A DNA stretch of 64,000 nucleotides from Bolinopsis microptera (taxonomy: Eukaryota > Ctenophora > Tentaculata > Lobata > Bolinopsidae): assembly GCF_026151205.1 (NCBI RefSeq), contig NC_087074.1:1862001-1926000 (forward strand), given 5' to 3'. Below are positions 10,625-49,300 of the stretch, piece by piece. The position numbers and the translations under genes were made by a program. The notes under the pieces are model-generated. The model saw only the letters and a program-made list of their open reading frames with translations. It was not told the DNA's origin and did not search any database. Each line of letters begins with the position of its first letter. The first letter of the stretch is position 1.

Positions 10625-13600
10625 TACATGTGTACTGACTGCATCTGACAGGCCCGTAGTTACTGACTGCATCTGACAAGACAGTAGTTACTGACTGCAT
10701 CTGACAGATCCGTAGTTACTGACTGCATCTGACAGGCCCGTAGTTACTGACTGCATCTGACAGGCCCGTAGTTACTGACTGCATCTGACAGGCCCGTAGT
10801 TACTGACTGCATCTGACAGATCCGTAGTTACTGACTGCATCTGACAAGACCGTAGTTACTGACTGCATCTAACAAGACCGTAGTTACTGACTGCATCTGA
10901 CAGGCCCGTAGTTACTGACTGCATCTGACAGGCCCGTAGTTACTGACTGCATCTGACAGGCCCGTAGTTACTGACTGCATCTGACAGGCCCGTAGTTACT
11001 GACTGCATCTAACAGGCCCGTAGTTACTGACTGCATCTGACAGGCCCGTAGTTACTGACTGCATCTGACAAGACCGTAGTTACTGACTGCATCTGACAGG
11101 CCCGTAGTTACTGACTGCATCTGACAGGCCCGTAGTTACTGACTGCATCTGACAGGCCCGTAGTTACTGACTGCATCTAACAAGACCGTAGTTACTGACT
11201 GCATCTGACAGGCCCGTAGTTACTGACTGCATCTGACAGGCCCGTAGTTACTGACTGCATCTGACAGGCCCGTAGTTACTGACTGCATCTGACAGATCCG
11301 TAGTTACTGACTGCATCTGACAGATCCGTAGATACTGACTGCATCTGACAGGCCCGTAGTTACTGACTGCATCTGACAGATCCGTAGTTACTGACTGCAT
11401 CTGACAGGCCCGTAGTTACTGACTGCATCTGACAGGCCCGTAGTTACTGACTGCATCTGACAGGCCCGTAGTTACTGACTGCATCTGACAGGCCCGTAGT
11501 TACTGACTGCATCTGACAGGCCCGTAGTTACTGACTGCATCTGACAGGCCCGTAGTTACTGACTGCATCTGACAGGCCCGTAGTTACTGACTGCATCTGA
11601 CAGGCCCGTAGTTACTGACTGCATCTGACAGGCCCGTAGTTACTGACTGCATCTGACAGGCCCGTAGTTACTGACTGCATCTGACAGGCCCGTAGTTACT
11701 GACTGCATCTGACAGGCCCGTAGTTACTGACTGCATCTGACAGGCCCGTAGTTACTGACTGCATCTGACAAGACCGTAGTTACTGACTGCATCTGACAGA
11801 TCCGTAGTTACTGACTGCATCTGACAGGCCCGTAGTTACTGACTGCATCTGACAAGACCGTAGTTACTGACTGCATCTGACAGGCCCGTAGTTACTGACT
11901 GCATCTGACAGGCCCGTAGTTACTGACTGCATCTGACAGGCCCGTAGTTACTGACTGCATCTGACAGGCCCGTAGTTACTGACTGCATCTGACAGGCCCG
12001 TAGTTACTGACTGCATCTGACAGGCCCGTAGTTACTGACTGCATCTGACAAGACCGTAGTTACTGACTGCATCTGACAGGCCCGTAGTTACTGACTGCAT
12101 CTGACAGGCCCGTAGTTACTGACTGCATCTGACAGATCCGTAGTTACTGACTGCATCTGACAGGCCCGTAGTTACTGACTGCATCTGACAGGCCCGTAGT
12201 TACTGACTGCATCTGACAGGCCCGTAGTTACTGACTGCATCTGACAAGACCGTAGTTACTGACTGCATCTGACAGGCCCGTAGTTACTGACTGCATCTGA
12301 CAGGCCCGTAGTTACTGACTGCATCTGACAGGCCCGTAGTTACTGACTGCATCTGACAGGCCCGTAGTTACTGACTGCATCTGACAGGCCCGTAGTTACT
12401 GACTGCATCTGACAGGCCCGTAGTTACTGACTGCATCTGACAGGCCCGTAGTTACTGACTGCATCTGACAAGGCCCGTAGTTACTGACTGCATCTGACAG
12501 GCCCGTAGTTACTGACTGCATCTGACAGGACCGTAGTTACTGACTGCATCTGACAGGCCCGTAGTTACTGACTGCATCTGACAGACCGTAGTTACTGACT
12601 GCATCTGACAAGACCGTAGTTACTGACTGCATCTGACAAGACCGTAGTTACTGACTGCATCTGACAAGGACCGTAGTTACTGACTGCATCTGACAGGCCC
12701 GTAGTTACTGACTGCATCTGACAAGACCGTAGTTACTGACTGCATCTGACAGGCCCGTAGTTACTGACTGCATCTGACAGACCGTAGTTACTGACTGCAT
12801 CTGACAAGACCGTAGTTACTGACTGCATCTGACAGGCCCGTAGTTACTGACTGCATCTGACAGATCCGTAGTTACTGACTGCATCTGACAGGCCCGTAGT
12901 TACTGACTGCATCTGACAGACCGTAGTTACTGACTGCATCTGACAAGACCGTAGTTACTGACTGCATCTGACAAGACCGTAGTTACTGACTGCATCTGAC
13001 AGGCCCGTAGTTACTGACTGCATCTGACAGGCCCGTAGTTACTGACTGCATCTGACAGGCCCGTAGTTACTGACTGCATCTGACAAGACCGTAGTTACTG
13101 ACTGCATCTGACAGGCCCGTAGTTACTGACTGCATCTGACAGGCCCGTAGTTACTGACTGCATCTGACAGGCCCGTAGTTACTGACTGCATCTGACAAGA
13201 CCGTAGTTACTGACTGCATCTGACAGGCCCGTAGTTACTGACTGCATCTGACAGGCCCGTAGTTACTGACTGCATCTGACAAGACCGTAGTTACTGACTG
13301 CATCTGACAGGCCCGTAGTTACTGACTGCATCTGACAAGACCGTAGTTACTGACTGCATCTGACAGGCCCGTAGTTACTGACTGCATCTGACAGACCGTA
13401 GTTACTGACTGCATCTGACAAGACCGTAGTTACTGACTGCATCTGACAGGCCCGTAGTTACTGACTGCATCTGACAGACCGTAGTTACTGACTGCATCTG
13501 ACAAGACCGTAGTTACTGACTGCATCTGACAGATCCGTAGTTACTGACTGCATCTGACAAGACCGTAGTTACTGACTGCATCTGACAGGCCCGTAGTTAC

Positions 13601-15490
13601 TGACTGCATCTGACAGGCCCGTAGTTACTGACTGCATCTGACAAGACCGTAGTTACTGACTGCATCTGACAGGCCCGTAGTTACTGACTGCATCTGACAG
13701 GCCCGTAGTTACTGACTGCATCTGACAGGCCCGTAGTTACTGACTGCATCTGACAAGACCGTAGTTACTGACTGCATCTGACAGGCCTGTAGTTACTGAC
13801 TGCATCTGACAGATCCGTAGTTACTGACTGCATCTGACAAGACCGTAGTTACTGACTGCATCTGACAAGACCGTAGTTACTGACTGCATCTGACAAGACC
13901 GTAGTTACTGACTGCATCTGACAGGCCCGTAGTTACTGACTGCATCTGACAGGCCCGTAGTTACTGACTGCATCTGACAAGACCGTAGTTACTGACTGCA
14001 TCTGACAAGACCGTAGTTACTGACTGCATCTGACAGGCCCGTAGTTACTGACTGCATCTGACAGGCCCGTAGTTACTGACTGCATCTGACAAGACCGTAG
14101 TTACTGACTGCATCTGACAAGACCGTAGTTACTGACTGCATCTGACAAGACCGTAGTTACTGACTGCATCTGACAGGCCCGTAGTTACTGACTGCATCTG
14201 ACAGGCCCGTAGTTACTGACTGCATCTGACAAGACCGTAGTTACTGACTGCATCTGACAGGCCCGTAGTTACTGACTGCATCTGACAGGCCCGTAGTTAC
14301 TGACTGCATCTGACAAGACCGTAGTTACTGACTGCATCTGACAAGACCGTAGTTACTGACTGCATCTGACAAGACCGTAGTTACTGACTGCATCTGACAG
14401 GCCCGTAGTTACTGACTGCATCTGACAGGCCCGTAGTTACTGACTGCATCTGACAAGACCGTAGTTACTGACTGCATCTGACAAGACCGTAGTTACTGAC
14501 TGCATCTGACAAGACCGTAGTTACTGACTGCATCTGACAAGACCGTAGTTACTGACTGCATCTGATAAGACCGTAGTTACTGACTGCATCTGACAAGACC
14601 GTAGTTACTGACTGCATCTGACAGGCCCGTAGTTACTGACTGCATCTGACAAGACCGTAGTTACTGACTGCATCTGACAAGACCGTAGTTACTGACTGCA
14701 TCTGACAGGACCGTAGTTACTGACTGCATCTGACAAGACCGTAGTTACTGACTGCATCTAACAGGCCCGTAGTTACTGACTGCATCTGACAGGCCCGTAG
14801 TTACTGACTGCATCTGACAAGACCGTAGTTACTGACTGCATCTAACAGGCCCGTAGTTACTGACTGCATCTGACAGGCCCGTAGTTACTGACTGCATCTG
14901 ACAAGACCGTAGTTACTGACTGCATCTAACAGGCCCGTAGTTACTGACTGCATCTGACAGGCCCGTAGTTACTGACTGCATCTGACAGGCCCGTAGTTAC
15001 TGACTGCATCTGACAAGACCGTAGTTACTGACTGCATCTGACAAGACCGTAGTTACTGACTGCATCTGACAGGACCGTAGTTACTGACTGCATCTGACAA
15101 GACCGTAGTTACTGACTGCATCTAACAGGCCCGTAGTTACTGACTGCATCTGACAGGCCCGTAGTTACTGACTGCATCTGACAGGCCCGTAGTTACTGAC
15201 TGCATCTGACAGGCCCGTAGTTACTGACTGCATCTGACAGGCCCGTAGTTACTGACTGCATCTGACAGGCCCGTAGTTACTGACTGCATCTGACAAGACC
15301 GTAGTTACTGACTGTATCTGACAGGCCCGTAGTTACTGACTGTATCTGACAGGCCCGTAGTTACTGACTGCATCTGACAGGCCCGTAGTTACTGACTGCA
15401 TCTGACAGGCCCGTAGTTACTGACTGCATCTGACAGGCCCGTAGTTACTGACTGCATCTGACAGGCCCGTAGTTACTGACTGCATCTTAC
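10625..15490. repeat. 28-bp minisatellite, about 173 units
   Basis: The constant part of the unit is tagttactgactgcatct, followed by a variable gacaggcccg. Variant cores are caggcccg, caagaccg, cagatccg, one-base-shorter cagaccg and one-base-longer caggaccg/caaggcccg. The first third is dominated by ggcccg and the second half is a mixture with aagaccg. A three-unit higher-order pattern marked by a taac variant repeats around 14720-14960. There are no unique spacers, and no open frame survives across it. Confidence 0.97.
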
Positions 15491-16375
15491 ATTGATTATT
15501 GGACACCCATCTGTCAAACTGACATACGATCAACGCGAACGGTGACATTTGACAAACTCAATGGTACTGCAGTAAAAATATAATTGAGAATGCCCACCGG
15601 CATTATCGGTATATTATTCTGTTATTCATATTGCTTTATTAAAACGTTCAACGTTTCCTTCATTATAGCTAGTTGTAGCTTTAGTTTGACATACTGAGAG
15701 TGAGAATACGGTTACATTTTTCTTAATTATGTAAGTATGTACTACGAAGTGAAGACACGAACTTTAGAGAACCAAACGTATATTGAGATAATAAATAATC
15801 AATAACGAACAGAAAGAATTATAATTACATTTACAGTCGTATCCGCTTATAACGCGGGTTGACGAGTGAAAATTAGAACTTACAGCAAAAAAACGTTGTA
15901 CTTCTAAGTTTAATTAAACTACGCCTTTCACTGCCTCATACTTATAACCGAACCCACGTTATAACCGGGTTTGCTCTTGAAAACAGATCTTACTAAATCG
16001 CAAGTCATACTTTGATCAAAAGTCGAGTCTATGGACTGGCTTTAATTTTAAACGACCCAACGAGCATAAATTCACTGGCAAATATATTTAACTGGTAGGT
16101 TTGACTTTGGCTTTCGTCTTTATATTTAGTTTGACTTGATGTTTCGGTTGAAGTTGATTGTAGGATAATATCCTAATGACCGCACTCGCAGCTGTGCTGC
16201 TCGCTGCACGTCATATATTTCAATCGAAATTTATACGCGTATCACCCGTTAAGAAGTTGATACCTAATTTTGTATTGTTAGTACCAAGGGAAACTCGTTG
16301 ATTAAAAAATAAACAATAATCAACAGAACAACATCACGTTAACTTAAGAAGTTATCTTTCCTTCAACACTATACC
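15491..16375. other. No gene recognised
   Basis: AT-rich unique-looking sequence. A cgtatcacccgttaa piece near 16216 matches the end of dispersed family D. Confidence 0.45.
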
Positions 16376-23492: not shown

Positions 23493-23725
23493 CTCCCCTC
23501 ATTAAGGAGGTATGTCCTGTCTGTTCTAAGAACATAGTCATCGGCCAAACAATAGTTGAATGTTTTCACTGTGACTGCATAATGCACCATAAATGCTATC
23601 GCAAATCAAATCCAAATAGCCAATCTAATGAGTTTTACTGTACTCGTTGTATCCATTTAGACAAGGTTAAATACAGTTCCCATTTAAACTACTCACTGAC
23701 AATGACGACGACGACAACAACCTAG
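23489..23725 (+). CDS. LINE PHD-type zinc finger segment
   Basis: ATG 23489 overlaps the stop of the upstream frame as ATGA, a layout suited to termination-reinitiation. The peptide has CPVCSKNIV, VECFHCDCIMHHKCY and FYCTRC, giving a C4-H-C3 zinc-binding pattern of PHD type. The frame then runs into ACG/ACA repeats and stops at 23725. The endonuclease frame is already open in a neighbouring frame, so this is probably the N-terminus of ORF2, or the end of ORF1, broken by an indel. Confidence 0.65.
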   Translation: MTPLIKEVCPVCSKNIVIGQTIVECFHCDCIMHHKCYRKSNPNSQSNEFYCTRCIHLDKVKYSSHLNYSLTMTTTTTT

Positions 23726-26700
23726 ACGAATACACAACCAAAATCTCAAATACTTTAAATGATTGTAACTCATACACTGCATCTGACCTTACAAATATTC
23801 TCTGCAACCAAGTAAAGAAACAATCATCTATTCTCTTTCAAAATATTGATGGAAATAAATCAAATTTTGACAACCTTGCCATTGAAACCTGTAGGTACAA
23901 AACAAAATTCTCCGTAATAGCCCTAGCTGAAACCAACACTGGAAAAGAATTAAGCAATCTATTTCAGCTCGACGGTTATAATAGTTACTATCAGGACACA
24001 GCACCTAACAAACAAAAGGGCACTGGAGTAGCCCTTTATGTTGACGATAAATTAAATGCTACTGTAATTGAGAATATATCACAAGTCACAGAACATCTAG
24101 AAATACTTGTCTTATCATTAAGTAACGAAGATCAACCTGTTAATGTAGGTGTTTTGTATCGTCCACCAAGTGGCTGTATTTCCCAAGCTCTAGTTGAACT
24201 TTCTAACCTTCTTGATCACATGCCGAAGTTTAGTTATCTAGCTGGAGACTTTAATATCGATCTTCATGATAAAGATAACAAAAATGTTCAAAAATATGAA
24301 GAAATATTATTCAGTAAAGGATTTTGTCCGTTAATATCTATTGTTACCCACGAAAAACCAGGCTGTAAAGCATCCTGCATAGATAACATTATTACTAACG
24401 ATATTGAGAATGTGATTACTTCAGGCACCCTAAAAGAACGAATAACTCATCACTCACCTATTTTTAACACATTTAACTGGAATGTTGAAGTCAACTCTGA
24501 AAAAACTTCTTTTAAACAATATTACGACTTCTGTCAATCAAATGTTAACGGCTTCCTAGTGGATCTTGAAGATGAGCTTAAAACTAAAACAATCCATAAC
24601 TTTACTGAATTCCATGACACTTACAAAAACTGCGTCGAAAAATCGTTTAAATTAGAGACCCCGAAAACCTCTAAGAGAACTGTTCAGGTTAACCCTTGGA
24701 TAACTCCCGGTCTCATTTGCTCAATTAATAATCAGCATAAACTGTACGAAAATTGGGTTGAGATAAGAAATAGAAAATGTAAACTCGGGGAAACTGATAA
24801 CAAGGGCGGCATTTGCCAGTGCCCTGAATGCTCACTAAAACGTAGTCGCTACCTTATCTACAAAGAATACAGAAAAGTCCTAAAGAAAACACGTCAAACT
24901 GTGAAAACAGAATACTTCTCTGGTAAATTTGCTGAAAATAGCGGTGATAGTAAAAAGACCTGGGAACTAATAAATCGTATAAGAGGTAAACGGCGGCGTG
25001 AAATAAAGCCGCTGTTCACCATAGACAACGTTAAGATAACAAATAGAAGGATCATAGCAAACGAATTCAATAAATATTTTGTATCATTAGCCTCTGACCT
25101 AAATACCGCTTACAATGATCTTGGACAAATTAACATAAACAGTATACCTAGTTTCTATGATTATCTACCGCTTTCAAACACTTCCAGCATTTACATGCAT
25201 GACTGCACAACAGACGAGGTTAGCAAAATCATATCTGAACTTAAAAATGGCAAGGCAAGTGACATACCGATTCATGTAATTAAGCAGTCCTCTAAAATAG
25301 TTACTCCTTTACTCACTGTACTGTATAACGAATGTATGAAGGATGGCATATTTCCAGATGACCTTAAAGTTGGAAGGATTAGTCCCATTTACAAGAAAGA
25401 TAACCAGGAACTCCTTGAAAACTATAGACCTGTATCAACGCTAGCTGTGTTTGGTAAAATATTTGAAAAGATTATATTCAATAGATTATACAGCTTCTTT
25501 CATTCACAGAACTCCTTATATGAAAACCAGTACGGATTCCGTAAAAATCACTCGACCAGTTATGCCCTAAATTACTCAGTGAACCACGTAGAATCTTGCC
25601 TCAAGAAAAAACAACACGTTCTTGGAATATTTATTGATCTTAGTAAAGCCTTTGATACAATATCACATGAAAAGTTACTGCATAAGTTAGAAAATTATGG
25701 AATCCGTGGAAATGCAAATAACCTTATAGCAAGTTACCTGTCGAACAGATACCAGTATGTCTCGGTATTAGGTGAAGAATCCGAGAAACTTCCAGTAGTC
25801 TATGGAGTGCCGCAGGGGAGCTGTCTTGGTCCCTTACTTTTTATTATTTATATTAATGACATCCGTAACTCATCAATTATAGGAAAGTTTATACTATTTG
25901 CCGACGACACTAACATATTTATAGAAGACACATGTGTCAAAAGACTATACGAAAAAGGAAATGAAGTTCTATCATTTGTGTACAAGTATATGAAACTAAA
26001 CTTATTACATATTAACATTAAGAAATGTTGTTTTATTCATTTTAAACCCTCACGGGCCAAAGAGGAAGTAGAAAATGACGAGAACATACTAACTTTAAAT
26101 AATGTAGTTATTAAAAGAGTTCAAGAAGCTAAATTTCTAGGCGTTATTATTGACGACCAACTTAACTGGAAATCACATACGCAGTCACTTAACTCAAAAC
26201 TTAAATGCGAAGTAGGAAAGCTGTGCAGAATACGACACATTGTCCCAAAGCAGTATTATAAGGATTTATATCATACTCTATTTGAATCACATTTAGGATT
26301 TGGAATATCTGTGTGGGGTGGTATTAGCAATAACCGACTTGAACCTATCTTTAAAACACAGAAAAAGTGTATAAGAATTCTGTTTGGGGATAGAGAAGCT
26401 TACCTAGAGAAGTTTAAAACGTGTGCCCGAACACGACCTGTTGATAAGCAAAGACTGGGGGTGGACTTTTACCAAAAAGAACACTCCAAGCCCTTGTTTA
26501 AAACCCACAGGTTGTTGACGGTCCACAATCTGTACAAGTACACTTGTCTCTTAGAACTATTCAAAATTAATAAGTTAGAGGAACCATTATCACTGTACTC
26601 ATCATTTAACAGGTCACCACGACGAGAGGATTATTTCATTACATCACAACCATCCTCACAATTCATCTACCAATCATCCTACATGTGGAACAGCTGTCGA

Positions 26701-26844
26701 CAAACATCAAGTAAGATAAGTTTTAATACTCCGACAAACGGGTTTAAGAATATATTGAAAATTGCCTTACGAGAATTGCAATTCAAGCATGATACACTTG
26801 ATTGGTGTGAGCTTAATTTTGCCACAAATGAGCTCAAGTTCTGA
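23671..26844 (+). CDS. LINE ORF2: AP endonuclease and reverse transcriptase
   Basis: The frame is open from 23671 to the stop at 26842, about 1057 codons. The endonuclease part shows ALAETNT, GTGVALYV, GVLYRPPSG, LAGDFNID and HHSPIF, which are the usual APE-type blocks. The RT part shows GRISPIYKK, NYRPVSTL, YGFRKNHST, FIDLSKAFDT, YGVPQGSCLGP and the catalytic FADDTN, followed by a thumb and the terminal WNSCR-type motif. The block order is that of the CR1/Jockey group. No ATG begins the open region, consistent with an upstream frame break separating it from the PHD segment. The protein would nick target DNA and prime reverse transcription from the RNA 3' end. Confidence 0.9.
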   Translation: MQFPFKLLTDNDDDDNNLDEYTTKISNTLNDCNSYTASDLTNILCNQVKKQSSILFQNIDGNKSNFDNLAIETCRYKTKFSVIALAETNTGKELSNLFQLDGYNSYYQDTAPNKQKGTGVALYVDDKLNATVIENISQVTEHLEILVLSLSNEDQPVNVGVLYRPPSGCISQALVELSNLLDHMPKFSYLAGDFNIDLHDKDNKNVQKYEEILFSKGFCPLISIVTHEKPGCKASCIDNIITNDIENVITSGTLKERITHHSPIFNTFNWNVEVNSEKTSFKQYYDFCQSNVNGFLVDLEDELKTKTIHNFTEFHDTYKNCVEKSFKLETPKTSKRTVQVNPWITPGLICSINNQHKLYENWVEIRNRKCKLGETDNKGGICQCPECSLKRSRYLIYKEYRKVLKKTRQTVKTEYFSGKFAENSGDSKKTWELINRIRGKRRREIKPLFTIDNVKITNRRIIANEFNKYFVSLASDLNTAYNDLGQININSIPSFYDYLPLSNTSSIYMHDCTTDEVSKIISELKNGKASDIPIHVIKQSSKIVTPLLTVLYNECMKDGIFPDDLKVGRISPIYKKDNQELLENYRPVSTLAVFGKIFEKIIFNRLYSFFHSQNSLYENQYGFRKNHSTSYALNYSVNHVESCLKKKQHVLGIFIDLSKAFDTISHEKLLHKLENYGIRGNANNLIASYLSNRYQYVSVLGEESEKLPVVYGVPQGSCLGPLLFIIYINDIRNSSIIGKFILFADDTNIFIEDTCVKRLYEKGNEVLSFVYKYMKLNLLHINIKKCCFIHFKPSRAKEEVENDENILTLNNVVIKRVQEAKFLGVIIDDQLNWKSHTQSLNSKLKCEVGKLCRIRHIVPKQYYKDLYHTLFESHLGFGISVWGGISNNRLEPIFKTQKKCIRILFGDREAYLEKFKTCARTRPVDKQRLGVDFYQKEHSKPLFKTHRLLTVHNLYKYTCLLELFKINKLEEPLSLYSSFNRSPRREDYFITSQPSSQFIYQSSYMWNSCRQTSSKISFNTPTNGFKNILKIALRELQFKHDTLDWCELNFATNELKF

Positions 26845-34188: not shown

Positions 34189-35725
34189 ATGATATCACCA
34201 GAAGACGAAAATGCGTTCACCAAGATCTTAACCACGTCACCAAATGATATGAAAAAAGGTAAGACCCTCATTACTCATGAGAACATTAGTAAATATTGAA
34301 TATCCCGTTTGCATTTCGATAAGAAACATACTTTCAACCTTGTATTAAGTTATAATAACTAACAAATCAGACATTAAAACTCTCTCAGACTTGACAAGAC
34401 GGCAGTCGTGGCTGGAGAAGAGAAAGAGAACGTTTAGTGGAGATGGAATGATAACCTGCCCTAGTTGCAGGGGTTCAGGTGTCAAGGACGCTTCTACTGA
34501 TCTGGTAAAATAGATACTACTGTTGCTAATATCACTATACTACTACTACTTATAATATACCTGATTCTACAGTTAAAGTTCATGTTCCTGCTTTGACTTT
34601 TAGATTCTCAAAACATTAATTTCACATAAAGTCGTTTGTTAAAGTGACTTTATGTTACACTACCTCAGGTAGCTCTGATACCCTACAGTGACTTTATGTT
34701 ACACTACTTCAGGTAGCTCTGATACCCTACAGTGACTTTATGTTGCACTACTTCAGGTAGCTCTGATACCCTACAGTGACTTTATGTTACACTACTTCAG
34801 GTAGCTCTGATACCCTACAGTGACTTTATGTTACACTACTTCAGGTAGCTCTGATACCCTACAGTGACTTTATGTTGCACTACTTCAGGTAGCTCTGATA
34901 CCCTACAGTGACGAGCGTCTTAAACCCCGCTTCACCAAATGTAAGATCCTCTTTGCTCTGGTGGTGTGTGCTGTGTTACTTGGTGTCTCAACTTACATAT
35001 TCCTGCCTGGGAAGGTGATAGTTACTACCACTAACTTGACCATTGTCAACGCTTCTGTTGCTGACTACAATGAAAACCTCTACTCGTTTGATATATTGAA
35101 AAGTACGAAGATAGCAGATCCAATATTACATGGCAGGTTGATGTAATGGTGGAGAATAGGAACAGGTTCCTCTCTATTACTGTCAACAAACTTCAAGTCG
35201 ACCTCAAGTGGGATGTAAGTTTTCGGAGATATTCATTTTGATCTTTAAATTACATACAACATTTTGGTACCTAGACAATAATAACCTAGCTGAAGAATGA
35301 TAACTTTTATTTTAACTTGTATCCCTGTCTCTTCACAGGTAAACGACCAGATAGAAGTAGGTTCCATAGTGCACGGCAACTTCACAGTTGGGGGACACAA
35401 AGTGTACTCTTCGGCTTACGACATCAAGACCCCCCAGAATGGTAGTGGTAAATACAGTGACTACCTCCTCACTTGCAAGTGCTGCAGACAATACACGCAG
35501 TGTGGTAAAATCCACATGTTCAGTTCCATTACACTTCATTACACATTGCACGTGGGCAAGTTTAACTATTTTTCTAACTTTGTGAGCAGTGATAAGTTGG
35601 GTTTTGATAATTGTAATTATTTTGATAATATGGGAACTAAGAATATTACGTGCGAGACTTTTAATAGTTGCCATAGAGATGGGAGGAATAGGATGATGCA
35701 GAATTTGGAAGATATGTTTGTTTAA
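34189..35725 (+). CDS. TMEM106-family protein, paralogue A
   Basis: The exons are 34189-34258, 34389-34504, 34889-35214 and 35339-35725. Exons 1 and 2 give 62 residues, the same length as in paralogue B, with the zinc-binding-like CPSCRGSG. Exon 3 starts VALIPYSDERLKPR, the family signature before the single transmembrane helix (LFALVVCAVLLGVSTYIFL). A luminal LEA-2-like domain follows, and exon 4 ends with a Cys-containing tail. TMEM106 proteins are type II late-endosome/lysosome membrane proteins. In exon 3 the frame breaks between about 35058 and 35105: the first part would stop at 35146, while the family-like continuation (NITWQVDVMVENRNRFLSI) is in another frame. A 47-nt intron (GT at 35058, AG near 35104) or a one-base indel would reconcile them. 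The intron before exon 3 carries a 6-unit repeat of the splice junction. Confidence 0.75.
34643..34912 (+). repeat. 44-bp repeat of the intron 2/exon 3 junction (6 units)
   Basis: Each unit is intron tail (gtgactttatgttacacta, then cttcag) plus exon start (gtagctctgataccctaca). Only the last copy continues into the full exon (34889). Using an earlier acceptor reads VALIPYSDFMLHYFR and then stops. The exon and the intron share gtgac at the junction, a likely microhomology for the first duplication. Confidence 0.95.
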
Positions 35726-38461: not shown

Positions 38462-41400
38462 ATGAGTGGAACTAATAATGAGGAGAACGATTTCCACAAG
38501 ATCCTCACTTCAACTCCTCCTCCCTCCACCAGCTCTGGTATCGGAGGTAAATAGATACAAGTAACCATGGTAACAATGTGTATGGGGGGTTGTAACCATG
38601 GTAACAATGTATATGGGGGGTTGTAACCATGGTAACTCCGCCTCCCTCCACCAGCTCTGGTATCGGAGGTTAATAAATATAAGTAGATACGAACCCTGAA
38701 TAGATATTTGTACCATACAACACTAACCAATGGGCACTATTTGGCAAGTTGCCCACTATTTAATATTGCCAAGTTGATTAATATAATATTATCGAAACGG
38801 AAGGTTTGTAAGCGTCATGTGTAAAAATCCCAAATGGGACTTAAAAAACGGAACAATGTAACAATTAAACCTTATCTCAAGGTATAGTTACACACACACT
38901 ACACAACACACAATAACACACACGAAGGCAGTTAAACGAATTACTATATAATATAATAATAAATAAATAAATAAATTCTAACATTTACTACACGCTTCGA
39001 CACGCTTATGTGGACAGGTTTTTAATAACAAATGTTAATAAAATGTAGTCATTGTTACATTCCTCAGGTGTAAACAGAACTACCTCGTGGTTTAAGAAGG
39101 ATGACAACCAGCTAGTAACGTGTATCAGTTGTAAGGGATCCGGCTACAAGGAAACTACTAATGAACTGGTAGGTAACAAACCAAACTGGTGACTGGCAAC
39201 ACCTATTATTATACTGGCAACACCTATTATTATACTGGCAACACCTATTATTATACTGGCAACACCTATTATACTGGCAACACCTATTATACTGGCAACA
39301 CCTATTATACTGGCAACACCTATACTGGTAACACCTATTATACTGGCAACACCTATTATACTGGCAACACCTATTATACTGGCAACACCTATTATACTGG
39401 CAACACCTATTATACTGGCAACACCTATTATACTGGCAACACCTATACTGGTAACACCTATACTGGTAACATGTACCCACATGTAATGTTACATAGTTAT
39501 GTCAATCTACCGGTCTGTGCAGTCAGCAGTGTGTGTTTTCCTTCACACATGAAACTTAAAGTTTGATAGATACGTTAAATTACTTAGTAGTTATCCTTAC
39601 TATGTAAATCTGCAAAATCAATGCCTCCACGACGATAAGACCTATCTGGATGAAAGCTTTTCAAGTAAGCCTTGTTTCGATATGCCCTTGAAATAGTGGC
39701 TACTAAATACCACCGTCTAAAAAGTACTAACACTGTGCCCCTTCAGGTGGTGCTGATACCGTACTCAGACGAGAGGTACTAACACTGTGCCCCTTCAGGT
39801 GGCGCTGATACCGTACTCAGACGAGAGGTACTAACACTGTGACCCTTCAGGTGGCGTTGATACTGTACTCAGACGAGAGGTACTAACACTGTGCCCCTTC
39901 AGGTGGCGCTGATACCGTACTCAGACGAGAGGTACTAACACTGTGACCCTTCAGGTGGCGTTGATACTGTACTCAGACGAGAGGTACTAACACTGTGCCC
40001 CTTCAGGTGGCGCTGATACCGTACTCAGACGAGAGGTACTAACACTGTGCCCCTTCAGGTGGTGCTGATACCGTACTCAGACGAGAGGTACTAACACTGT
40101 GCCCCTTCAGGTGGCGCTGATACCGTACTCAGACGAGAGGTACTAACACTGTGACCCCTTCAGGTGGTGCTGATACCGTACTCAGACGAGAGGTACTAAC
40201 ACTGTGACCCCTTCAGGTGGCGCTGATACCGTACTCAGACGAGAGGTACTAACACTGTGCCCCTTCAGGTGGCGCTGATACCGTACTCAGACGAGAGGTA
40301 CTGACACTGTGCCCCTTCAGGTGGCGCTGATACCGTACTCAGACGAGAGGTACTAACACTGTGCCCCTTCAGGTGGTGCTGATACCGTACTCAGACGAGA
40401 GGTACTGACACTGTGCCCCTTCAGGTGGCGCTGATACCGTACTCAGACGAGAGGTACTGACACTGTGACCCTTCAGGTGGCGCTGATACCGTACTCAGAC
40501 GAGAGGTACTGACACTGTGCCCCTTCAGGTGGCGCTGATACCGTACTCAGACGAGAGGTACTAACACTGTGACCCTTCAGGTGGCGCTGATACCGTACTC
40601 AGACGAGAGGTACTAACACTGTGCCCCTTCAGGTGGCGCTGATACCGTACTCAGACGAGAGGTACTAACACTGTGACCCTTCAGGTGGCGCTGATACCGT
40701 ACTCAGACGAGAGGTACTAACACTGTGACCCCTTCAGGTGGCGCTGATACCGTACTCAGACGAGAGGTACTAACACTGTGCCCCCTTCAGGGGGCGCTGA
40801 TACCGTACTCAGACGAGAGGTACTAACACTGTGCCCCTTCAGGTGGCGCTGATACCGTACTCAGACGAGAGGTACTAACACTGTGACCCCTTCAGGTGGC
40901 GCTGATACCGTACTCAGACGAGAGGTACTAACACTGTGCCCCCTTCAGGGGGCGCTGATACCGTACTCAGACGAGAGGTACTAACACTGTGCCCCTTCAG
41001 GTGGCGCTGATACCGTACTCAGACGAGAGGTACTAACACTGTGCCCCTTCAGGTGGCGCTGATACCGTACTCAGACGAGAGGTACTAACACTGTGCCCCT
41101 TCAGGTGGCGCTGATACCGTACTCAGACGAGAGGTACTAACACTGTGACCCTTCAGGGGGCGCTGATACCGTACTCAGACGAGAGGTACTAACACTGTGA
41201 CCCTTCAGGTGGCGCTGATACCGTACTCAGACGAGAGGTACTAACACTGTGCCCCATCAGGTGGCGCTGATACCGTACTCAGACGAGAGGTACTGACACT
41301 GTGACCCTTCAGGTGGCGCTGATACCGTACTCAGACGAGAGGTACTGACACTGTGCCCCTTCAGGTGGCGCTGATACCGTACTCAGACGAGAGGTACTAA

Positions 41401-44341
41401 CACTGTGCCCCTTCAGGTGGCGCTGATACCGTACTCAGACGAGAGGTACTGACACTGTGACCCTTCAGGGGGCGCTGATACCGTACTCAGACGAGAGGTA
41501 CTAACACTGTGACCCTTCAGGTGGTGCTGATACCGTACTCAGACGAGAGGTACTAACACTGTGACCCCTTCAGGTGGCGCTGATACCGTACTCAGACGAG
41601 AGGTACTTACACTGTGACCCCTTCAGGTGGCGCTGATACCGTACTCAGACGAGAGGTACTAACACTGTGCCCCTTCAGGTGGCGCTGATACCGTACTCAG
41701 ACGAGAGGTACTAACACTGTGACCCCTTCAGGGGGCGCTGATACCGTACTCAGACGAGAGGTACTAACACTGTGCCCCTTCAGGTGGCGCTGATACCGTA
41801 CTCAGACGAGAGGTACTAACACTGTGCCCCTTCAGGTGGCGCTGATACCGTACTCAGACGAGAGGTACTAACACTGTGCCCCTTCAGGTGGCGCTGATAC
41901 CGTACTCAGACGAGAGGTACTAACACTGTGCCCCTTCAGGTGGCGCTGATACCGTACTCAGACGAGAGGTACTAACACTGTGCCCCTTCAGGTGGTGCTG
42001 ATACCGTACTCAGACGAGAGGTACTAACACTGTGCCCCTTCAGGTGGCGCTGATACCGTACTCAGACGAGAGGTACTAACACTGTGCCCCTTCAGGTGGC
42101 GCTGATATCGTACTCAGACGAGAGGTACTAACACTGTGCCCCCTTCAGGTGGCGCTGATACCGTACTCAGACGAGAGGTACTAACACTGTGCCCCTTCAG
42201 GTGGCGCTGATACTGTACTCAGACGAGAGGTACTGACACTGTGACCCCTTCAGGTGGCGCTGATACCGTACTCAGACGAGAGGTACTAACACTGTGCCCC
42301 CTTCAGGTGGCGCTGATACCGTACTCAGACGAGAGGTTGCAGCCCCGACACACCACGTTAAAAGTAACTATAGCTCTGGTTATAACGGCTATCATTATTG
42401 GGTGTCTCTTCTTCGTCTTCTTCCCTCGGCACGCTGGAGCTACTTCTGCAGGTACGTGGTAACTCCAACTGTGAGCTGCTGTATTTGTATGGTTAATTCA
42501 CTACCCTTACATGAAATATTAGAATTATGTACTCAATATAAATAGTCAAAATTAAAATACTCCTCAATACTCACTGTGTGTATTAAGTACTCACTGTGTG
42601 TATGTGTGTACTAAGTACTCACTGTGTGTATCATGTGTGTACTAAGTACTCACTGTGTGTATCATGTGTGTACTAAGTACTAAGTAATCACTCTATGTAA
42701 CCATGTTAACACTGTGTGTATTACTCAGGGCTGGAGATAGCGAGCGGGGACGTATACAGTGACACAACTAAACCAACTATCCTGACACTATTAGATAACG
42801 TTACAGTAACTAATGATAACTACTTTCCTATTGTTATAGATACTCTCAATATCAGTCTTGCTATATCCTGGGTCGGAGGAGTTCAGTTCGAGGTAAGATA
42901 GCTAATTAATTAATTAGTTAATTAATTAATTAATTAGTTAAATTTTATCAAAATAATGGCTAAAAAGTTTGAAGTACGAGCATTTATGACGATCAGATTC
43001 TACTAATATTCTATAGTGCAGCTGAAAGTTACCCACTATAATTGCCACAGTTAATACAAATTTGTATAATTCAGTGAACAAAAACCCATAGTCTACTCTT
43101 AGTGTAAGTTGGATGAAATAATGAGTGTTAAAAATTATTGATTTAAATTGTCGTGGCAAAGTAAACAATTACTTTTCTTAAATGAAATAATTTCACTTTC
43201 ATCAAATCACTTTCATAACTTGATTTTTAATCGTTTTGACACTTTATTAATATGATTGTGTGGTAAGATTTCTAAAATGTATGTTACATTTTGTACATAA
43301 TATGTAATATAATATATTTTGTATGTGGTATTACATTTCTCCAGTAAATGTAATTTCCAAGTTGAACTGTAACTTGATAACAGCTCTACAGGTAACTCAG
43401 TAACTGTTTGACAAGGTGTACTGTGTCACGAGTCACGAACTGTATTTATAGCTGTCGCTATGTCACGTACTGTTTGACTTTTCTGATAACTTTATTTGTT
43501 ATAATATAACTGTTAATGAATAAACTTTGTAAAACAGATGTGGAAATAATATGTAATATAATATATTATGTGTACATAATATAATATATTCAATGTGACT
43601 TATTTATATCTTTATAATTATCTAATAGTCCACACTATCCCTACAAATCTTCAGAAGATCTCACCTCCGGGACCTCCCCACCATGCCAGTATCTCTCTGG
43701 TTACTATAGTAGCAGAGTTGAGTATGCACTTCTCAACTACTCAACTACACTCTGCTACTAGTAGTAGTACTAGTAGCAGAATAACCTCTCCACTCTGTTA
43801 CTACTAGTAGTAGTACTAGTAGTGCTACTAGAGTAACCCACCATGCCAGTTTCCAGATCTATTCTTTACACTCCAACACATGACATTCCACACCATCACA
43901 CATCAAACTCACTCTAACATTACACACTCTCACTCTAACATTCCACATGACACACACTGTAACAGCATTACACAGCATTACACAGGATTACACTCTCTAT
44001 TCTCTAACACACCATTACACTCTCTAACACTCTCTAACACTCTCTAACACACCATTACACAGGTGGGAAGTATAGGGCGCTCCAAGATAGAGATCCCAGC
44101 TCACATTGACCAGCTCACCATCCCCTTCAGTATCCAGACCTACGACTACCCAATAGACCGGCTCTTCAGAACCTGTTGCTATGTGTTCGCTGGGCACTAC
44201 ATCTGGTACAGAGTCACTATTAACGCACGTTACAAACTTGCTTTTGTGGGGAATTATTACTTCTCTAGCTCTGATGTGCAGACTATTCCTGTGTATTGTG
44301 ATTACAGTCAGAACAAGAACATCACGTGTCATTACAACTGA
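38462..44341 (+). CDS. TMEM106-family protein, paralogue B
   Basis: Five exons (38462-38546, 39068-39168, 42307-42451, 42729-42892, 44063-44341) join in frame to 257 residues (human TMEM106B: 274). The N-terminal cytosolic part has CISCKGSG. Exon 3 encodes VALIPYSDERLQPRHTT and the transmembrane helix (VTIALVITAIIIGCLFFVFF). Exons 4 and 5 encode a luminal LEA-2-like domain with several N-glycosylation sequons (NVT, NIS, NIT) and a CC pair, as in the family. The protein is expected in lysosomal membranes, where TMEM106B affects acidification and trafficking. The true exon 3 acceptor is the last of about 50 near-identical copies. The stop codon lies in the first unit of a 20-bp tandem array. 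Introns 1 and 2 also hold minisatellites, which makes the gene almost 6 kb against 1.5-2.5 kb for its neighbours. Confidence 0.85.
38547..38690 (+). repeat. X-box units inside a duplicated exon 1 end
   Basis: The end of exon 1 (ccctccaccagctctggtat through cggaggt) recurs at 38644-38671. Between the copies are three gtaaccatggtaac units with ggggggt links, the same unit as the 36.6-37.8 kb array. The second exon-end copy is followed by taataa, so it is intronic. Confidence 0.85.
39189..39474 (+). repeat. 18-bp minisatellite in paralogue B intron 2
   Basis: About 16 units of actggcaacacctattat occur, with 21-bp variants (extra tat) at the start and 12-bp variants (actggtaacacct) inside and at the end. 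The open frames over it are repeat by-products. Confidence 0.9.
39724..42335 (+). repeat. 52-bp repeat of the intron 2/exon 3 junction, about 50 units
   Basis: Each unit holds the branch-site motif TACTAAC, a pyrimidine-rich gtgccccttcag acceptor, and the first 29 bases of exon 3 (gtggcgctgataccgtactc plus agacgagag). It then begins again with gtactaac. Units are highly alike (variants: ggtgct, gtgaccc, cccccttcaggggg). Only the last copy (acceptor at 42306) continues into the remainder of exon 3. Read from any earlier acceptor the frame is VALIPYSDERY followed by TAA, the stop being part of TACTAAC. Confidence 0.97.
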
Positions 44342-44760
44342 TCACGTGTCATTGCAACTGATCACGTGTCATTGCAACTGATCACGTGTCATTACAACTG
44401 ATCACGTGTCATTACAACTGATCACGTGTCATTACAACTGATCACGTGTCATTACAACTGATCACGTGTCATTACAACTGATCACGTGTCATTGCAACTG
44501 ATCACGTGTCATTACAACTGATCACGTGTCATTACAACTGATCACGTGTCATTACAACTGATCACGTGTCATTACAACTGATCACGTGTCATTATAACTG
44601 ATCACGTGTCATTACAACTGATCACGTGTCATTGCAACTGATCACGTGTCATTACAACTGATCACGTGTCATTACAACTGATCACGTGTCATTGCAACTG
44701 ATCACGTGTCATTACAACTGATCACGTGTCATTACAACTGATCACGTGTCATTATAACTG
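44329..44760 (+). repeat. 20-bp array grown from the coding end, about 22 units
   Basis: The unit tgatcacgtgtcattacaac begins as the last codons and stop of paralogue B (ITCHYN, stop) and repeats with a/g and a/t variants. Each unit contains ATCACGTGT with the E-box CACGTG. It forms the first 420 bases of the 3' UTR. Confidence 0.95.
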
Positions 44761-45156
44761 ATAGTTTTTACATGAATATATAAAGCATCAAGTGGGTTCT
44801 CATGTGTGATGTGGGCTCCTGGAAAGTGATGAGATGTAAATTTTAATGGTGTAGTCCAATTTTATGAAGACGGTTTTCCAGTTTCTATTTAAAACCTAAC
44901 GTGTACATAATATTGGATATTTTTCACGATTCTCCCAAACTCTGTAAGCTAGCTAACAGCACATCACTTATTCTACATCGTTATTTTATCAATACAATAA
45001 CGTTAAATAGTCCCCTAGTGTGACAGTATTGTGCAATGAACTCCCTACAAATTCTAATTCTTTACAATACCCACGTGTTTTATACAATGCTATATACTAG
45101 ACAGGGTGTACACTGTACAATATATTTCTAATGGTATAATGAGAGGAGTTGATGTA
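44761..45156. other. Paralogue B 3' region, nothing else seen
   Basis: AT-rich; possible 3' UTR. No clear AATAAA signal close to the array was identified. Confidence 0.4.
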
Positions 45157-46838: not shown

Positions 46839-49300
46839 ATGAAACATTTTACAAGTAAAGCATACGGCGCAACCGGGCCAACTGAGAGATGTAGGACTTG
46901 CAAGGGAACTGGCAAAATAACCAGAAAAGACAAAGAGGTAAATTATCATTTCACACTATTCTCTATGATTTGAGGAATTTCACTGCCCTGAAATCTCAGT
47001 GCTTCTCGTTTGAGTTGCATTCTGCTATTCTGTGTAGCAACTTGGAATAATGTGCTAATGTAATACTCTAATCAACATTCAACTTGCCTGTAAGCTTGGA
47101 ACAACGCCTTCTCATATTTCACGGTGACCATGTCACAACCGTGACCATGTCACAACTTTCCCGTTTCCTCATCTAAGATACTTTGCAGGGTATTGCAGTG
47201 ATATCGTACGGGGATGAAAGGCTCGCCCCTTCTCGTACTGCTATTTATATCATAATAGCTGTGATATTGTTTCTAGCCCTCACTGGAACACTGGTGGTTC
47301 TATTTTATCCACGAACGGTACGTAACGCGCAGCGCCGAACCGTTTTATTGTGATATTGTTTGCGCGCACGTACAAACTTTTACGCTTTATTGTAGATTTT
47401 ATGTCGTAGTGTGGCTTAAGTGTAGAGTGTACGTGTTTTACCTCAATACAACAGACATTGTACACAAACATTATATACATTATATAATGTTAATTATACA
47501 CCGCAGTGTTTTATTGTTGGTTAAATACTTCACCCTTCAGGTGAGCGCTACTTCGACCAACCTGAAGATAATATACGCGGACATTGACAAGAATTCCACC
47601 AAGCTTGTCCTGCAAGACACTGTCAATGTAAAGAATTCTAACTATTTTGTTGCCTACTTGGATGGAATCGATATAACTGTACAGGTATAAACCATTATGT
47701 ATTCATAAGGGCCCATGCTTGTGCAGGAGCTGCATTTGCACTCAATATCTGTGTTTTGGTGACCCTCAGGTCCTTTGGTTACATACATTTTGTCCGAGAA
47801 AATTTCAACTTTGACAATCCATGCTTAGAGGACAATATTATATTTAACTAATTCATTGTGTAAACTTGTATGTAATTGACTGATTTGAAAGATTTCAATA
47901 AAAAAAATATTCAGACTCTGGACGAATGATTCCGGACACGTTGATATTAATTTGTTCTGTGGTTACTTATAAAAGTCGACGGTCTAAGGTCTTGGAACAA
48001 ATATTTTACACGTTAAATAAAGGAGCAAGATATAATCTCACTCTCTCGCAAATCTAACTGCACCACATTTACCAGTACCAGCAAAGAGAGGTGGGAAAGA
48101 ACAGCACAGAATACGGAGTTAACCTAACTCACCCTTCCATCTCGTCCCGCAAAGTCTCCCCTCTCAACTACAGTATCACATTGGAGTTCAACAAGGAAAC
48201 GGGGTCTGATGATATCTGGACTTACTGCTGTCTTATCAAATACAGTCTCGGCTTCCAGGTGGGTGTTATTGACACACGTGATATCCCAATGCCAAGGTGT
48301 TTTTTACCCACATGATGCCCAATTAAGGTTGTTGTTTGGGAGCTTCGTCGTCAAAAGCAATGTCAGGGCACGAAATAATTCTCTTACAAATTACAAATTA
48401 CAAATTAGCGGATTCATGTTTATTTCTGACGATATTTTGGGGTTTCTTGATGATAGCTGTACTGTTATACGTTTTTGTTCAACTTTATTAATTTTCATCT
48501 AATTGATTGAGTGTATATTGTTAAGTTGTTAGAGAAGAATAACTCCTCTTAAACTAATTACAATTTCAGGTGCAAGTAAATACTCGGTTCAGTTACTTCT
48601 CGAACAAGTTTGAGTTTAGCGACAGTATGTATCAGATAGCTAATTGTAATGAAATGATAAAGCACAGTGATAACACATGTCATCTTGACTTAACAGGTAA
48701 AATACGCTCTCAAATAGTCGCGAAATTAACTCATATTAAGGTTACTGATAACAGACAGACGACAGACTGCACTATATCAACATTCCAATCGAACTTGTGC
48801 ATTGTATTGAGCTTGATTGATGGATTGTTCTTTTTTTTCCGATCACAAAACCATCTTTCATAATAAATTCCGACCTTTTAAACCGGTCATCTGACTGCAT
48901 GAATTTTAATCTTTTAGTTCATTTTAGACATACACCTCTATGTTATTTGCTATAAATTCTGATATTTTTATGGAAGAGAGACGGGGTAGACCATGTTTAA
49001 ACTTATTAGATGTTATTAGAAAAGACTTGACTAGTAGAAATCTTGATATTAGACTTAAGAATTTGACTGATTTCGAAGACCTTAGATTTTTAGCTTTAGA
49101 TAGGGAGGAGTGGAAGAAGTTAGAAGATGGTTGATGTTTTTGTTTTCTTTTTTATGCGTTTTGATATCTATAAGGTGCCTAGGATGCTCTTTTAAACAGA
49201 TATTTCGTACTTTGAAAGATTTACTACAATAGTTCATTTTAGTTGAATTTCCGTTATCCCCGCAGGAACTAAAGAAGTGCCCGAAGAAGTAGCTGGATGA
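46839..49300 (+). CDS. TMEM106-family protein, paralogue C
   Basis: The exons are 46839-46937, 47189-47317, 47541-47684, 48091-48258, 48570-48696 and 49266-49300, joining in frame to 233 residues. Exon 1 has a short N-terminus and CRTCKGTGKI, closest of the three to vertebrate TMEM106. Exon 2 encodes VISYGDERLAPSRT and the transmembrane helix (AVILFLALTGTLVVLFYP). Exons 3-5 are the luminal domain with TNLKIIYADI, NSNYFVAYLDGIDI and a Cys pair. The last exon (TKEVPEEVAG) is short; without that splice the frame would continue to 48863. The luminal part is split by an intron (48259-48569) that A and B lack. The exon 2 acceptor is a single copy here, unlike in A and B. The start is the first in-frame ATG after a stop; an upstream exon is possible because the N-terminus is 29 residues shorter. 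AATAAA follows at 49413. Confidence 0.8.
47970..48020 (+). repeat. Truncated dispersed family D piece in paralogue C intron
   Basis: It contains gtcgacggtct, ggaacaaatattttac and acgttaa, matching the second half of family D. Confidence 0.5.
48940..49134 (+). pseudogene. LINE C-terminal remnant in paralogue C last intron
   Basis: A 64-codon frame reads RRGRPCLNLLDVIRKDL and later LALDREEWKKL. This is the characteristic tail of many LINE RT proteins (GRP...D.+..D+.......A.DR..W+), also seen in the fragment at 29825-30582. It is the 3' end only and sits between exons 5 and 6. Confidence 0.65.

Follow-up and report, generated by a model that had tools for sequence, protein, structure and literature searches.

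A minisatellite across the exon 3 acceptor of a Bolinopsis microptera TMEM106 gene, probably tolerated, and related arrays at other exon edges

Introduction

How does a gene make its mRNA when one of its 3' splice sites stands at the end of a long row of near-identical copies, and does such a row serve the gene at all? Both questions are raised by the second of three tandem TMEM106 paralogues (A, B and C) on the plus strand of a window of 64,000 nucleotides from the ctenophore B. microptera (contig NC_087074.1, positions 1,862,001 to 1,926,000 of the forward strand), in which positions are counted below unless another contig is named. The initial annotation of this DNA had proposed that paralogue B (gene B) carries a ladder of decoy acceptors whose copy number could tune its output. 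We examined the array itself, its counterparts in the paralogues, and the same pattern elsewhere in the genome.

Results

Structure of gene B and its acceptor-spanning array

Gene B is modelled with five exons and four GT-AG introns encoding 257 amino acids, open to the stop: exon 1 with the start codon (38462..38546); exon 2 (39068..39168), with the donor CTG/gtaggt; exon 3 (42307..42451), which encodes a hydrophobic (membrane) segment; exon 4 (42729..42892); and exon 5 with the stop codon (44063..44341). The product matches the Pfam family TMEM106_N (PF21002) over residues 42-78 (3.9e-12; 47.1 bits against a cut-off of 24.5), and this match crosses the join of exons 2 and 3 made through the last acceptor of the array.

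Most of intron 2 (3138 nt) is array. TRF, run on the whole window, reports a 52-bp unit repeated 50.0 times at 39724..42337 with a score of 4861, and a script divides the array into exactly 50 units, of which 38 measure 52 bp and 12 measure 53 bp, with 19 distinct sequences among them. Every unit straddles the intron-exon boundary, comprising 23-24 nt of intron and 29 nt that are identical or nearly identical to the start of exon 3, in the layout GTACT(A/G/T)ACACTGTG, a short C-rich run, (T/A)TCAG and the 29 nt. The CAG acceptor is intact in 50/50 units, and the branch motif is TACTAAC in 41, TACTGAC in 8 and TACTTAC in 1 (TACTRAC in 49/50), which bears out the earlier description of about 50 repeated units that contain a branch motif, a 3' splice site and the first 29 bases of exon 3. 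Exon positions 1-2 read GT in 45 units and GG in the other five. TACTAAC was considered as a special motif and set aside, because CTAAC or TTAAC-like sequences also precede some other acceptors of these genes; we take it for the ordinary branch motif. The last unit and unit 47 share one sequence type, so that position, not unit sequence, must mark the last one. A 90-nt unit query against the species' own genome returned at least 49 overlapping matches, all inside this array. The array is thus head-to-tail, with a boundary-spanning unit, splice signals in its units and an authentic exon at its edge, as in the 'mirage' minisatellites discussed below.

Smaller arrays lie elsewhere in the gene. 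TRF finds an 18-bp unit repeated 14.8 times (39192..39461), starting 23 nt into intron 2; a 31-bp unit repeated 3.5 times in intron 3 (42575..42681), ending 47 nt before exon 4; and a 20-bp unit repeated 22 times across the stop codon (44321..44762), whose first copy is the coding end with its TGA (NITCHYN-stop) and whose later copies lie 3' of the stop. The tail of intron 4 holds three copies of a 20-bp unit with CTAAC (44001..44060), ending 2 nt before exon 5. The end of exon 1 with its donor (GGAG/GTAAAT) recurs about 120 nt downstream (38500-38690), with GTTAAT replacing GTAAAT in the second copy and a 31-bp array between the two. A search of the window with Rfam at gathering thresholds gave 0 matches.

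Consequences of acceptor choice in gene B

The initial annotation had held that the last copy alone opens into the real exon, and the readings agree: splicing of exon 2 to any upstream acceptor, followed by translation on through the array, gives an early stop in 49/49 cases, and the 50th acceptor is the only one that stays open through exon 3. The ending that it had given for the earlier acceptors, YSDERY followed by TAA, is found in 48 of these 49 readings (...YSDERY-stop); the exception is the TACTTAC unit, which reads VALIPYSDERYLHCDPFRWR-stop, nine residues later than the others. Splicing a unit in as a 29-nt microexon ahead of the last acceptor also ends in a stop (...SDERWR-stop, 49/49), in line with the TGA that had been predicted for such an inclusion. 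Stops number 38, 39 and 38 in the three frames through the array. Both the gene model and homology lead one to expect that gene B chooses the last acceptor.

Paralogues A and C

Paralogue A (34189..35725; TMEM106_N 4.7e-14 by Pfam, first 153 aa) carries an acceptor-spanning array of its own (34643..34912; 44 bp x 6.1 by TRF), at the same acceptor as the gene B array and 5 kb upstream of it, with a different part of the intron and a shorter piece of the exon. Its unit consists of an intron tail with CAG and 18 nt of the homologous exon, or 24 nt if six letters common to the unit start and the exon are counted; the acceptor context is CAG/GTAGCT, 138 nt of intron lie ahead of the array, and all five upstream acceptors lead to VALIPYSDFMLHYFR-stop. 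The frame of paralogue A changes near 35100-35140 with no obvious intron, and neither reading tried stays open to the end; this may reflect a pseudogene, an assembly error or an unrecognised short intron. Paralogue C, represented by its first three exons (46839..47684; TMEM106_N 1.6e-7), has no array at the homologous acceptor (47188/47189).

A single origin for the arrays of A and B was considered and rejected, as the units differ in period (44 and 52 bp), in the part of the intron taken up and in where the exon piece ends. These differences between the units make separate births more likely, and an older duplication common to both arrays is possible. Neither the array of paralogue A nor the presence of the pattern beyond TMEM106 figured in the initial annotation.

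Exon-edge arrays in other genes

A sample of contig C1 contains an exon of a NOG2/GNL2 GTPase gene (NGP1NT match, 3.1e-45) flanked on the left by 8 copies of a 41-bp acceptor unit (CAG/TG) and on the right by 164 copies of a 38-bp donor unit (AAG/GTAAGG). When the last acceptor and first donor are used, the product aligns without gaps over 95/95 residues to chain 6lss_1 (nucleolar GTP-binding protein 2, which we take to be the human protein; 6.2e-36). When the donor array is split into 157 pieces, the first donor is AAGGTAAGGA in 150 and a variant in 7. The exon matches one place in the genome, so that its 8-copy and 164-copy arrays sit on the sole copy found. A CDK1-like kinase gene has an acceptor array (L049; 39 bp; the stretch examined holds 2.8 copies) whose units have only GTAGT and a few letters in common with the exon; the exon after the last acceptor, together with the next exon, aligns without gaps over 101/101 residues to the CDK1 chain 4yc6_A (2e-42). 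In the TMEM106, NOG2 and CDK1-like genes, homology says that the exon-proximal copy should be the right one.

Less firmly assigned is a gene, presumably PLCG-like, in a stretch with an SH3 piece (3.3e-6) and a later SH2 piece (2.9e-4; both Pfam). It has an 11-copy donor array (66 bp; 11.1 by TRF) at a junction read from phase alone, the piece across that junction having no Pfam match and chance-level PDB matches (0.2 and worse). In another stretch (L048), a short exon is bordered by an acceptor array (26 bp, positions 2-214), whose units have little in common with the exon beyond CAGG, and by a donor array (positions 350-805; 40 bp x 9.9, with 11 donors in the stretch when that of the exon is counted). 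The exon has a very weak Sushi match (0.06 to 0.09); it is the second exon, after that of NOG2/GNL2, to be flanked by both an acceptor and a donor array. The other stretch of its acceptor array (L047) ends at a retroelement-looking frame. At the duplication joints, read from the array ends, the shared letters number six in paralogue A, two in B, four in the SH2/SH3 gene, and 1 or 2 and 0 in the NOG2 arrays; there is no common signature among these five arrays.

Genome-wide excess and local tests

Repeated splice consensus is in clear excess across the genome (264.65 Mb tested). Triples of the donor consensus MAGGTRAGT, spaced 25-54 bp, occur 641+881 (1522) times against 55+5 (60) for the pattern read backwards, and acceptor-like triples YYYYNCAGG at the same spacing 2533+3126 (5659) times against 556+588 (1144), where the counts are of matches rather than arrays and are inflated by long arrays counted many times. 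The donor matches listed form nine arrays on C1, whose exon-side ends we examined; a coding-looking open frame runs into the first donor, as judged by eye, in six of the nine (L037 to L042), and no exon was seen at the end of the other three among the matches listed (L043 to L045). The six pieces gave one Sushi match, at 0.0026 below the Pfam cut-off, and otherwise nothing better than 0.17; L041, which we read as DPH2-like, had no match. The acceptor matches listed lie no further than 0.87 Mb into C1 and form three arrays, one split over two stretches; we examined their right ends. Two of the three lead to the CDK1-like exon (L049) and to the exon of L048. The third, which runs from C1 859560 to position 970 of L046 (over 80 copies of a unit of 38-43 bp, about 43 bp in one reading, with CCCCTCAG and a further CAGGT), had no recognised exon at its right end. 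Of the 12 arrays followed to an end among the matches listed, 4 had no exon there (L043, L044, L045 and L046).

Local tests were weaker. A splice-edge test of 45 arrays in 294 kb flagged five against 1.8 expected from 1800 random placements, which is not significant: the test had been prompted by two of the five, both in the window, and one more (C1 offset 141530) looks false. Donor motifs were found in one of 45 units (mean 0.16 over 200 letter shuffles, 29 of which reach it) and acceptor motifs in five (1.73 over 200 shuffles, six of which reach it), both weak results; the reversed units gave 0 donors and 1 acceptor.

Tandem repeats detected by TRF occupy 23.2% of a 200-kb sample of C1, 10.3% of a 30-kb sample of C5 and 25.7% of the window; for the genome of another ctenophore, Hormiphora, the excerpt of PMC8527503 gives 13% marked by TRF. 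Searches of the present genome gave 0 zf-C4 matches, with the controls silent as well, and 17 Wnt places, while kinase matches fell on C1-C13 and one on C68; together these make a ctenophore probable. The window also contains an array of 174 copies of a 28-bp unit (10633-15491; TACTGACTGCATCTGACAGGCCCGTAGT), which resembles a branch motif with an acceptor and at whose ends no exon was recognised, and a long open frame with the look of a reverse transcriptase (23671-26844), by eye a retroelement. On the minus strand of C1:1000001-1200000 (offset 112077-112328), a 42-bp array forms an in-frame 14-aa repeat that closes a GPCR-like frame (7tm_1 9.1e-6, below the curated cut-off).

Discussion

A tolerated minisatellite as the probable explanation

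The gene B array is probably a tolerated minisatellite of the 'mirage' type that has grown over the exon 3 acceptor, with the last copy making the mRNA. A short piece of DNA spanning the exon 3 acceptor would have been duplicated in tandem and grown to 50 copies; the last, which touches the body of exon 3, would lead to mRNA, and the other 49 would be spliced out as intron. The array may persist by tolerance and not by selection, since every duplication across an exon edge keeps one intact exon together with its splice site. This genome is rich in minisatellites, and such arrays have formed at other acceptors and donors too. The last acceptor would most likely win by cross-exon pairing with the donor at 42452, aided by the exon body. 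Its being the mostly used site, its way of winning and the neutrality of the array are what we infer.

Where introns are long, PMC9225289 reports a preference for the splice sites closest across the exon; for 3' sites in long introns, the same paper (section 9) has the upstream preference only reduced, downstream sites not being favoured outright. It follows that the 49 upstream acceptors should compete, and pairing across the exon is therefore not a complete account of the choice. Against the tolerated-minisatellite explanation stands also the 138-nt stretch of intron ahead of the paralogue A array, since pairing across so short an intron would favour the first acceptor. Together, these two points imply that exon-body sequences must help or that much transcript is lost.

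Alternative explanations

The view closest to the initial annotation is that the array is functional: upstream acceptors would divert transcripts to NMD or to a soluble N-terminal fragment, and copy number would set the productive fraction. The intact acceptors and branch motifs, the stop that awaits every early choice, the presence of arrays at one acceptor in two paralogues, and the upstream leaning of 3' site choice described in PMC9225289 are what such a device would show. Intact motifs are also what homogenisation alone yields in near-identical units, however, and the same structure in the NOG2/GNL2 and CDK1-like genes, with the genome-wide excess, points to a general mutational process; furthermore, the amphioxus cases are said to splice normally (PMC3087553, as excerpted). 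A special ladder tuning TMEM106 is thus not supported, given the different array of paralogue A, the exon-edge arrays of other genes, the genome-wide excess and the amphioxus precedent. A decoy or tuning role in gene B is possible, less likely because the pattern looks general, and on balance we think it unlikely. Unlikely, too, is a reading of wider reach, that exon-edge splice-site minisatellites of variable length across the genome act as inherited, perhaps somatically shifting, splicing rheostats, array length altering the yield of full-length mRNA from genes such as TMEM106, NOG2/GNL2 and CDK1, or else that the animal chooses splice sites so strictly that as many as 163 near-identical competitors are passed over.

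Stepwise (recursive) splicing, in which exon 2 is spliced to a CAG/GT that restores a donor and the array is removed hop by hop up to the last unit, would suit the GT that follows CAG in 45 of the 50 B units and the CAG/GTAGCT of paralogue A. Five B units have GG in place of GT, and the CAG/TG of the NOG2 acceptor array cannot work in this way, which together rule it out as a general mechanism; the regenerated donor, CTG/GTGGCG, is also weak by consensus, and for gene B itself such hopping is very unlikely. The array might have been free to grow in a dying or unused gene, as three tandem paralogues and the frame problem in paralogue A would allow. All five exons of gene B are open, though, and exon-edge arrays are borne as well by conserved genes of the NOG2/GNL2 and CDK1 kind, which are essential in other organisms, and we consider this explanation highly improbable. 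Tandem arrays are error-prone in assembly, and the length of the gene B array could be an artefact, yet the 19 distinct units in irregular order, the long contigs (C1 is 26.2 Mb) and the presence in two paralogues of arrays of two different units leave this the least probable of the explanations weighed here. The tolerated minisatellite is our preferred reading.

Relation to known systems

The 'mirage' minisatellites of amphioxus occur in Adh3, the globins BflGb6 and BflGb9 and TnC, with PGBD5 similar, and RT-PCR is said to suggest regular splicing there (PMC3087553 and PMC3902484, as excerpted). As far as those excerpts describe them, amphioxus mirages and the arrays reported here have in common a tandem duplication across the intron-exon boundary, many units with AG/GT signals, a position at 5' or 3' exon edges and an authentic exon bordering the array; somatic instability is reported for the Adh3 mirage. 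The BflGb6 haplotypes quoted have 6 and 3 units, whereas TRF gives 6.1, 8.0, 11.1, 50 and 164 copies here. Unlike the amphioxus cases, as excerpted, the present arrays are from a ctenophore, occupy both edges of one exon at once and accompany a genome-wide excess of motifs.

Rogers reportedly proposed in 1989 that introns are gained by tandem duplication of AG/GT proto-splice sites. Both TMEM106 units carry AG/GT, and whole units could accordingly be excised as introns; unlike that type of intron gain, the array lies within an existing intron, and no new intron position was seen. In human segmental duplications, internal tandem repeats at exon-intron boundaries likewise place minisatellite units on exon edges (PMC2812944); as that source is excerpted, they average 30 bp x 4, lie in recent primate paralogues and are reported with novel introns or alternative transcripts, whereas the arrays described here are longer and occur in conserved genes as well. 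Among the literature matches listed, there is no report of mirage minisatellites outside amphioxus. The copy number and the taxon look new, and the kind of repeat is known from amphioxus.

Implications

Gene annotation may find array-edged exons hard. Choice among identical splice sites has mostly been studied with few competing sites, and natural genes in which homology picks one right site out of 6 to 164 near-identical ones offer a test of that choice. If the exon-proximal copy is cleanly used, simple first-site or nearest-across-intron choice would be ruled out for these genes; if it is not, they would bear a large hidden cost or be under length-dependent control. The arrays of B. microptera extend mirage minisatellites beyond amphioxus and suggest that such arrays can be common.
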